Source: Dissulfuribacter thermophilus (GTDB lineage: Bacteria > Desulfobacterota > Dissulfuribacteria > Dissulfuribacterales > Dissulfuribacteraceae). Taken from it: a DNA stretch of 64,000 nucleotides. Location: the NCBI RefSeq assembly GCF_001687335.1, contig NZ_MAGO01000007.1, forward strand, positions 1-64,000, written 5' to 3'. Numbering within the stretch: position 1 is the first letter of the stretch; every line of letters starts with the position of its first letter. Below the pieces are notes generated by a model that did not search any database, had not been told where the DNA came from, and worked only from the letters and a program-made list of their open reading frames with translations. This document shows positions 1,112-6,543 of the stretch, piece after piece. Made by a program: the position numbers and the translations under genes.

Positions 1112-3487
1112 ATGAATTTAATTAAGAGGATATTTTCAATTGGTTTGGTGGTTTGCTTTTCTGTGATACTCCAAAATGACCTTGGTATTGCAGAAGAAAA
1201 GGAATACGAGGGGTCAGTTAGTATTGGTGGAATATTTGTGATGGACGACATCGATTCTGATGAGGATGGAGCCAAGGGAACAGAGTATAACAGCGTGCTA
1301 GACAATACAGGATACTGGGATCTTAAAGGTGAATTGGGCTTTGAAAAGGACGGCCTAGCCTTTAAGGGTGAGGCGCATTATCAGTATGTAGATGAGCAGG
1401 AATATGGGGCAATATTAGACCTTAAGAGAATTCTTCGTTTAAAGACAGACTATTCGAGATTCTTACACAGACTGGATCACGATGAACTCGAAAATCTAAA
1501 CGCACATATCTTTTCTAACACAGATCCAGGGCCATCTGCTGGAAAAGGATATTTTGTCGATTTTAATGGTGATGGAACAAATAATAAGAATGAAGAGATC
1601 GTAGGTTCTGCCGCAGTTTATCATACAGACTTAGGGGCAGGGGACGAATATCACATAATGAGAAGTGAGTGGAACAATAATGCGGTACTGCATATCCCTC
1701 AGATTCCAGGCTTAAAACTGTCCTTTTCTCACAGATTTGAAGAACGAAAGGGCTTGGACCAGGCCCGTACCATGAGCAAGTGTTCTGCATGCCACATTGT
1801 CGCCGACAGTAAGAGCATTGACGAAGAAACCAATGATTATATGCCGAAGGTCTCTTTAAATACTGAAAACTTCGCTATTGAGTATTCTTTTCTCCATAGA
1901 GATTTTGATGATAAGAGCGAAGATATGAGTGTTGTGTACAACAACCTTGCAACTACTCACCTGGGTTTTACTAATAGGCTTCAATTCGATGGTCGGGATG
2001 GCCCGCTTCCTTATTCTAAGACCCCTGATTCTCAAAAGGATGCCCACACCTTAAAGGCCAAGTGGAACGTAAACCGCACAAACACTGTGACTGCTGCTTT
2101 AGTCTATTCCCAGAGCACAAATAAGAGTACTGATGGTCCATATGACATTCTGACTGGTAATTTAAATGACGAACTGGAGATGGATAGTACTGCCATCATG
2201 GCGAGGTGGCACAACAGAGTCAGTCGCAAACTTTCTTTCAATGTCTTTGGAAAGTATCAGACCATAGACAATGACGACGCATTTATAGATGTAGTGGACA
2301 GGACAAATGCCGATGGTACAACCCTTGGAGATGGATACTCAAGAAGTGCTTTAGGGGCTGCAGAAGGCCTTCAGACTGGCTTTTGGGATTTTACTAGAAA
2401 GTCTGGGTATGATCTCGATATCACAACCCTTGGTTTTGATGTAGCATGGAGACCTATGCACGGTGTCACTCTCAGAGGAGCCTATGAATTTCACTATGAA
2501 GATCGAGAGAATGCCGAGGAACACAACGTTCCAGACGACACCACGGAGCATACTATTAAGCTCTCGGGTGATTGGCGAGTCATGCATTCTTTGAAGCTTG
2601 GATTTGGTTATAAACTAGAGCTTGTCGATGATCCATATGCCCTTAAATTTGCAGTCTGTGCTCCAGATGGCTCCTATGGCGAATACGGAGGTCCTCCAGG
2701 TTCATTATATGACTATTCGAGATCCTATGACCCTACCATATATAGTAAGCGTGTCGGAACCCGTTCCAACCTGCCTGAGACAGCTCATGAATTTTCATTT
2801 AAGGCCAATTGGATGCCAATTACGGTGTTGAGTACAAACGTTTATGCGAAATACAAGATGGCTGAAAATGATGATGTTGACGGCAATAGCTGGGAACAGG
2901 ACCTTTTTTCCGGTGGAATCAACGTGGTATTGACCCCCAATGAAAAAATATCATTTGTTGCAGGCTATGATTATTTTAATGACAAATACGAATCAATGTA
3001 CTGCATAGCAATATATGATGGGTGAGCAAATATAATTACAACGGACCAGTTTGGTTCCGAGCAGACAGGAATGGATTACAGGACCGAGGCCCACAGCTTT
3101 TCAGTTGTTGCCACTTATAGGCCACTGGCTGTCTTAGGCTTCAATGCTAATTTCAACTATACTACTGGCAGAGGTAATATCACAGACCTTAAATTCGAAA
3201 GTATGTTCCCAACAGGGGATGCAAAGCTAGATTTGGATACCAGTTCAATCAATCCAAATCAGCCATATCTCTATGACGTAGCATATTTGAATGAGATGGC
3301 AGATTATTCGAATTTGGATTTTGAACAGCTCGATTTTACCATGGGAGTCTCTTACAGGATCTCAAATGACATAGGTCTTGGTATCAACTATTATTACACA
3401 GATTTTGAAGACAACGAAGCCTATGTATATGGAGACCAAGATGTAACTGTACAGTCACTCATGGGCTTTGTAACTGTGAGTTTCTAG
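1112..3487 (+). CDS. MtrB/PioB-like outer-membrane beta-barrel with an in-frame TGA (codon 638)
   Basis: Decaheme-associated outer-membrane barrel that would sheath the preceding cytochrome. Signal peptide at the N-terminus; ATG at 1112 is chosen because AAGGAGGT ends 6 bases before it (a GTG at 1106 is also in frame). The frame meets TGA at 3023-3025, but the same frame continues open to 3487 and ends in Phe, the usual last residue of a barrel, so the downstream part is clearly the missing C-terminus. Full length is then 791 residues. A CSACH haem-type motif lies at about residues 224-228, unusual inside a barrel protein. Three readings are possible: selenocysteine (a hairpin follows at 3042-3059), a nonsense mutation, or a sequence error. 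Automatic annotation would give two pieces, 1112-3025 and about 3071-3487. Confidence 0.85.
3042..3059 (+). promoter_or_regulatory. SECIS-like hairpin after the in-frame TGA
   Basis: CGGACC pairs with GGTTCCG, giving six base pairs, one bulged U on the 3' side, and an AGTTT loop with G at its second position. The loop begins 22 bases after the TGA. Bacterial SECIS elements are known to be a short stem-loop about this far downstream, with a G in the first two loop positions. The classical bulged U of E. coli fdhF is on the 5' side, so the match is partial. Inference only. Confidence 0.35.
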
Positions 3488-3508
3488 GAATAGATGATTT
3501 TCCAAAGA

Positions 3509-4798: not shown

Positions 4799-4957
4799 TG
4801 CATAACAGTGGAACATTTAATATTGCGTATTAGCATGACATGCTTTATATAAGTCAAAAATTTGGGAAAGGGGGTGTATTGACAAAGGTAGTGTATTAAA
4901 CGTTTTTTTGAGGAATCGATTTTGAAAAGTAAAAAATTAAAAGGAGGGTTTACTGTT

Positions 4958-6543
4958 ATGCTAAAAAATGGGAGAGGTTTTTTTAGCCTGATTTTCTTTT
5001 CAATTTTTTCTTTATGTCTTGCAGGTATTTCTTTTGCCGGTCCAGGATCTGTAGAGATACAGACTGTTGGCGACATCACTATCAAGATGGGGGCCCAGGT
5101 AAGGCTCATTCCAACTGCTGAAATCAATAGAGATTTTGGTGTGAGTAAAGACGTTGATGGCGCTGTGGCAACAACAATTTTACCAGGTACTGGTGCCATT
5201 AGTGTAAATACAAGAGGACATCTCACTGAAGGTGCTGGCGATGTAAAAGACAGCTATTTTAGGAATGAGAATAGGCTATTCTTTAATTTTGCTCATGGCC
5301 AGGACTGGGATGTCTACATGGCACTGGAATATGATAGTCTTTGGGCAAGGGAGACTGCAGACCGTACTGACTTTGCTGCTGGAAGGCAGAGCCAACAGTT
5401 CGGTATTGAAAGGCTTTTGGCCACCTTCAATCTTCCAATGATTTACTCAAGACTCCAGGCAGGTTGGGATGCCCGTGGTGTGGATATTAAATACGGCGGA
5501 CTTGTTTACGGCGACGACGATCCAGGTATAGGTATTGTCGGTGCCAAAGACGCCATGAAATGGGCCTTCTGGTACATTAAAAAGGATGAAGATGAGGCTG
5601 GTTACACTCAAGGCACACAAATCCTTTAGGACCTGCAAACGATGCATTGGCATCAGACAGGACATTTATTTATGGCAAATTGGCTTACAACCTTGGTATT
5701 GCAGAGGTTGAAGGCTTCTGGATGTGGGATAAGAACGATCAGGCTGGTAAAAATGTTGACCATCATTTTGTAGGCCTCCAGGGCAATGGTAAAGTCGGTA
5801 TTGCCAAGGTTATGTTGGAAGCCGCCTATGGCTTTGGTGACTATGATACTGCCGCTGGTCAGAACTATGACCTTGGTTCTTGGGCATTCTTTGGTGATGT
5901 CGCCTTTGATCTCCATGATCAGGTAGGAATCAAGAAGTTTGAAGTACATGTTGGCGGTATCTACGCACAGGGTGATGATGACTGGTCCGATAACGACCTA
6001 ACAGGTTGGACCCCAGCCACTGGTATCACAAGATTTACCCCTGCATTTGGTACTGAGCAGAGCATTTCTTTCGATGGTGACAATATGTTTGGTCAGATCC
6101 TCTACAGCATCTTCCCAGCATACTATGGTTCTGGCCTTATAGGTGGTGGTATAAACGGGAAAGCACAGTTCGATAACCCTGGTCTCATCATGATCGGTGG
6201 TGGTGTGAAGGCTGCATGGGATAAGTGGAGCTACAAGGGTAATGTAATGGCCATGTGGTTCGAAGAGGCACAGGCCGTTGAGAATTACTATGCATTGAAG
6301 GGTGTTGCAGGTAATATTAACATTGACGAGTTCATGGGCATTGAGTGGAACAATGAAATTGCATACAAGCTCTACAAGAACGTGACCATCAAGGGTGGAG
6401 CAGCATTCTTGTTCCCAGGCGCTGGCGCCAAGGACATTGCCCAGGCACTTAAGGCATTTGTCCAGGGTGTGAATTTTGAAGATGCAGGAGATTCAGACGA
6501 CGTCTCTATGCGCTTTGCAGCAGAGCTTATCTGGTTCTTCTAA
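4958..6543 (+). pseudogene. Outer-membrane porin, one-base frameshift near 5617-5629
   Basis: Signal peptide (MLKNGRGFFSLIFF onward, cleavage after ISFA) followed by alternating polar/hydrophobic barrel strands and a C-terminal Phe-Phe, typical of a Gram-negative porin. ATG at 4958 is chosen over the TTG at 4922 because AAGGAGGG lies just before it and because the signal peptide then starts correctly. The first frame ends at TAG 5627-5629. The sequence resumes in the next frame, open from about 5593 and read to 6543. One extra A in the AAA run at about 5619-5621 would give continuous protein (…TQNPLGPANDALASD…) of about 528 residues. So this is a fresh frameshift, an indel error, or slippage. 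Both halves look equally well conserved as coding sequence. Substrate unknown. Automatic annotation would give 4922/4958-5629 and 5647-6543. Confidence 0.8.

Follow-up and report, generated by a model that had tools for sequence, protein, structure and literature searches.

Genes and features at the locus

The window, by which we mean the whole 64-kb stretch of DNA analysed, carries near its start a decaheme cytochrome gene directly followed by a gene for an outer-membrane beta-barrel that contains an in-frame TGA. The features are as follows:

103–1095, + strand: GSU2203-family decaheme c-type cytochrome (DmsE/MtrA-like), the partner gene; NF041028 481.8 bits, TIGR03508 253.5 bits, 10 CXXCH
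1112–3487, + strand: GSU2204-family MtrB/PioB-like outer-membrane barrel, 791 residues and then TAG if the TGA is read through as selenocysteine; PF11854, NF041027 531.5 bits, 26 strands in an AlphaFold2 model, Z 27.2 against MtrB (6r2q_B)
1781–1795, + strand: CXXCH haem-binding motif CSACH, residues 224–228, in the barrel itself, predicted to be extracellular at the beta7/beta8 hairpin tip; kept in 63–64 aligned sequences, invariant in A3
2657–2659, + strand: Cys516 codon, in the predicted extracellular loop beta17/18; Cys in 40 aligned sequences
3002–3004, + strand: Cys631 codon; Cys in 44 of about 65 aligned sequences
3023–3025, + strand: UGA, probable selenocysteine codon for residue 638; same column in homologues TGA 55, Cys 2, Gly 1, context always TGAG
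3042–3059, + strand: probable SECIS hairpin, CGGACC-AGTTT-GGTTCCG with a bulged U; geometry and synonymous-site selection (50 of 54 homologues)

The barrel frame begins at ATG 1112 (GTG 1106 being a longer, mechanical start), has its sole internal TGA at codon 638, and continues for 153 more sense codons to the C-terminus ...FVTVSF and the stop TAG at 3485–3487. The original prediction, that the frame halted at TGA 3023 runs on to a C-terminus ending in Phe, with a Cys seven codons ahead of the TGA, was accurate to the base, the Cys being residue 631. It had also described the product as an MtrB/PioB-like barrel, and this assignment is borne out by a PF11854 score of 59.3 bits (gathering score 23), by the NF041027 score and by MtrB as the best match in the PDB. 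When judged by eye, none of the remaining TGA-interrupted frames of the window was selenoprotein-like. Further along, a porin-like protein (4922–6543) is split into two ORFs of 235 and 298 aa in different frames, which points to a shift of frame around 5630, through an error or through decay.

The NF041027 model, named "GSU2204 family CXXCH-containing (seleno)protein" (GSU2204_Se_pt_1), has a curated cut-off of 350 bits and matches residues 26–637 of the barrel. Its last position is the residue just ahead of the UGA, so that it covers the pre-Sec part only. Membership of the GSU2204 family is indicated by the score above cut-off, the CSACH motif, and the UGA at the family column with a conserved frame beyond it. 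Membership of the MtrB/PioB family is indicated by the Pfam score, the modelled 26-strand fold and the adjacent MtrA-like decaheme gene, which lies directly upstream of the barrel at all homologous loci with sufficient flanking sequence. We found no second multihaem gene (an ORF with at least 3 CXXCH) in the 64-kb window or in flanks of up to 5 kb at 15 related loci.

Conservation of codon 638 and of the frame beyond it

With the read-through protein as query, we searched 60 relatives in all six frames and recovered one in-frame TGA each in nearly all full-length homologues, at the identical column and within the motif YCIAIYDGU[A/G]N. Widening the search to 395 genomes and the GTDB contig collection yielded 69 non-redundant sequences or fragments, among them more distant barrels without a YCIAIYDGU-type motif. 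The column is TGA in 55 of these, which share about 23–76% identity; it is Cys in two paralogues (L090 and L104) and Gly in one sequence (L045). The base after the TGA is G in every case, and TGG was never found at this column among the homologues. An alignment at codon 638 had been put forward as a check on selenocysteine, and its outcome leaves that reading unrefuted.

Sequence conservation does not fall off past the TGA. Identity after as against before the TGA is 80% and 75% for L018, and 76% and 70% for L019; in the four homologues compared it is slightly higher past the TGA than ahead of it. In the two nearest homologues, most codon differences downstream of the TGA are synonymous. Taken together, these patterns indicate that the downstream frame is translated.

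Other residues near this site are less constant. Where both columns are covered, Cys516 never occurs without Cys631, and 12 Sec homologues lack both, which argues against a fixed Sec–Cys couple as a general property of the family. In L045 (genome G022), Gly replaces Sec although the genome has tRNA-Sec, and Cys631, Cys516 and the CXXCH motif are all retained; Sec is thus not indispensable. The Cys-type paralogue L104 (L104:336-2799) carries an extra in-frame TGA at codon 574. We rejected this codon as a second Sec site, as its position is not conserved and the TGA is present in no homologue; it is probably an error or a nonsense mutation.

The SECIS hairpin and the selenocysteine machinery

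Bacterial SECIS elements are hairpins downstream of the UGA with a G within the first two loop positions and the loop about 16–37 nt away. The window gene has such a hairpin, made up of CGGACC (3042–3047), the loop AGTTT (3048–3052) and GGTTCCG (3053–3059) with one bulged U, the stem starting 16 bases and the loop 22 bases after the TGA. The sequence of this hairpin and both spacings had been given correctly in the original prediction. Taken singly, the window hairpin is modestly above chance (shuffle z −1.3 to −1.9) and marginal in a synonymous-shuffle test (p = 0.066), so the case for a SECIS stands on the family and not on the single hairpin. Within the family, we compared the region from +18 to +37 with synonymous recodings that leave the peptide unchanged. 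It surpassed 95% of them in stability in 50 of the 54 distinct sequences (mean z −3.36), and across the 54 homologues the hairpin is clearly under selection. An Rfam scan of positions 2700–3500 gave matches only under gathering scores.

The source genome (2.52 Mb, 27 contigs, 99.97% complete) encodes tRNA-Sec with anticodon UCA, SelA, a SelB with a detected SelB-wing_3 domain, and SelD, whose own gene has a UGA near its start. The search for Sec genes proposed at the outset therefore found selA, selB and the tRNA, with selD in addition. At a strict threshold, tRNA-Sec was detected in 38 of 47 homologue-bearing genomes and not detected in the other nine, perhaps because of draft assembly or the strict filters.

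A second UGA-reading system in the same genome

Cys recoding of UGA by a selC*-type tRNA has reportedly been treated by Vargas-Rodriguez in 2018, to go by the title of that work as cited in PMC8762117. Alongside its normal tRNA-Sec, the genome holds a selC*/selB* pair on contig 11 (G000:C11:19880-21882; L002, L010, L114), a known kind of pair that recodes UGA as Cys. The acceptor stem of this tRNA-Cys(GCA) is 8 bp long, and position 73 is U. Against the tRNA-Sec model the tRNA reaches 58.8 bits, above the cut-off, and it lies directly upstream of a second SelB (SelB*). Ahead of it is a gene that we read from sequence as a formate dehydrogenase with a Cys active site. In SelB* no SelB-wing_3 domain was detectable, whereas the normal SelB has one, which makes recognition of the barrel SECIS by SelB* uncertain. 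A second tRNA of the selC* type occurs in only a handful of the 47 homologue-bearing genomes (E ≤ 1e-9).

Decoding of the in-frame UGA

We conclude that TGA 3023 is a selenocysteine codon, with a probability of about 0.9 or higher. This interpretation, which had been made from the single sequence, is now supported by the TGA column in 55 homologues, selection on the hairpin, the conserved downstream frame, and the presence of tRNA-Sec, SelA, SelB and SelD. A nonsense mutation or sequencing error, such as TGG to TGA, was the competing explanation offered with it, and has in its favour just the in-frame TGA taken alone. The homologues refute it: many genomes assembled independently of one another share the identical TGA, which excludes a base-call error, TGG is never seen, and the frame beyond is conserved, so that we give this explanation practically no weight. 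A true stop at the UGA, with a functional protein of 637 residues and perhaps some regulated read-through, is also very improbable. ORF callers do end at the UGA, as does the span of NF041027, but a real terminus here would cost the barrel strands beta22 to beta26, and it is at odds with purifying selection downstream of the UGA and with selection on the hairpin. Less remote, though still improbable, is that the selC*-type tRNA-Cys(GCA) and SelB* read the UGA as Cys, either entirely or when selenium is scarce. The position of this tRNA ahead of SelB*, its score against the tRNA-Sec model, the precedent for such pairs (PMC7609411) and the Cys at this column in two paralogues all accord with Cys insertion, and the presence of the pair means that Cys could be inserted at UGA in the cell. 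Given the few genomes with the second tRNA as against 38 with tRNA-Sec, and the missing wing_3 signal in SelB*, we regard Cys as a minor product or one made only under certain conditions; occasional Cys insertion at the barrel UGA is possible.

Predicted structure and topology of the read-through protein

An AlphaFold2 model built on 58 sequences (pLDDT 80, pTM 0.77) has 26 strands and is continuous through the UGA; truncation there would remove the last five, beta22 to beta26. Its best PDB match, 6r2q_B, aligns over 584 residues at an rmsd of 3.4 (model range 20–791). In the model, even-to-odd strand turns are short (2–6 residues) and odd-to-even loops are mostly long. We read the long loops as extracellular and both ends as periplasmic, which places the CXXCH motif (beta7/8), Cys516 (beta17/18) and Cys631/Sec638 (beta21/22) all on the predicted extracellular side. 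The best-kept histidines in the alignment are His119 (62/62) and His228 (63/63), and the invariant His119 is a candidate second haem ligand. About 14 strands of the barrel separate the haem strands 7/8 from the Sec strands 21/22, so that any direct contact between haem and Sec would be conjectural.

A proposed outer end of an electron conduit

In the explanation that we favour, tRNA-Sec(UCA), SelA, SelD and SelB decode UGA 3023 as Sec, guided by the SECIS hairpin that starts 16 bases past the codon, and the product is a GSU2204-family barrel, MtrB-like and complete with all 26 strands. The GSU2203-family decaheme cytochrome would fill this barrel as MtrA fills MtrB and, to judge from the two families, the pair would form a trans-outer-membrane electron conduit. 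On the extracellular side would lie Sec638, Cys631, Cys516 and a covalent haem on Cys224, Cys227 and His228, with His119 as its candidate second ligand. The barrel haem may be reduced by the last haem of the decaheme cytochrome. The selenol, frequently together with Cys631, may act at the surface as a redox centre or as a ligand, passing electrons to an outer acceptor or binding that acceptor. Surface selenol and barrel haem could in this way stand in for a separate surface cytochrome.

We propose this outer end because the decaheme gene lies upstream and there is no further multihaem gene in the flanks or the window. The full proposal, in which the barrel is the outer terminus of the conduit, its extracellular haem and surface selenol (Sec638, in many cases alongside Cys631 and Cys516) take the place of an MtrC-type cytochrome, the acceptor is for example a metal oxide, elemental sulfur or polysulfide, and tRNA-Cys recoding is a possible Cys fallback, is speculative and as a whole rather doubtful. 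A redox role for the selenol, taken by itself, is a tentative suggestion that could well turn out otherwise. The chief competitor, a serious one if still short of an even chance, is that Sec638 is real but not redox-active in electron export, being instead a metal, chalcogen or substrate ligand, or part of a structural selenosulfide with Cys631. Retention of Sec in 12 sequences without Cys631 and Cys516, and its single replacement by Gly, are consistent with such a role. Against it, the location in a haem conduit favours redox chemistry, and Sec is seldom retained for purely structural purposes.

Novelty and relation to known systems

The original prediction held that a selenocysteine in an outer-membrane electron conduit would be new. 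This does not stand, as the family is already in NCBIfam as NF041027, and a one-Sec selenoprotein "MtrB/PioB family outer membrane beta-barrel protein" is tabulated in two reviews (PMC9312934, 2022; PMC13188914, 2026). The selenoprotein barrel is a real finding, but mostly not new in kind, since the GSU2204 selenoprotein family has been catalogued. Family-wide evidence supports Sec inside an outer-membrane electron conduit, and we add, as a prediction, its location on the surface of a barrel that carries a haem as well. The interest lies in this predicted surface site and in the function of the family, for we found no studies of GSU2204 function in the literature searched. GSU2203 and GSU2204 of Geobacter increase by a factor of about 1.5 to 2.7 when hematite or magnetite is present (PMC4070692).

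Several known systems bear comparison. The contig 11 pair has the layout of the selC*/selB* pairs reviewed for deltaproteobacteria (PMC7609411), a tRNA-Cys(GCA) with a SelB-like gene downstream, but it is unlinked to the barrel gene and its action on the barrel UGA is only putative. The upstream cytochrome belongs with the GSU2203/OmcK and DmsE-type decaheme cytochromes (NF041028, TIGR03508), and differs from DmsE-type systems in that we identified no neighbouring gene for a DmsAB-type terminal reductase. The barrel resembles MtrB of Shewanella (6R2Q chain B) and PioB in its modelled 26-strand barrel, decaheme partner gene and fold match. Unlike MtrCAB, the locus has no MtrC-type outer-surface cytochrome gene alongside, within the window and the flanks of related loci, and in contrast to MtrB/PioB the barrel has a CXXCH haem site of its own and Sec. 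With the GSU2204 family (NF041027) nothing essential differs, and the barrel is one more member.
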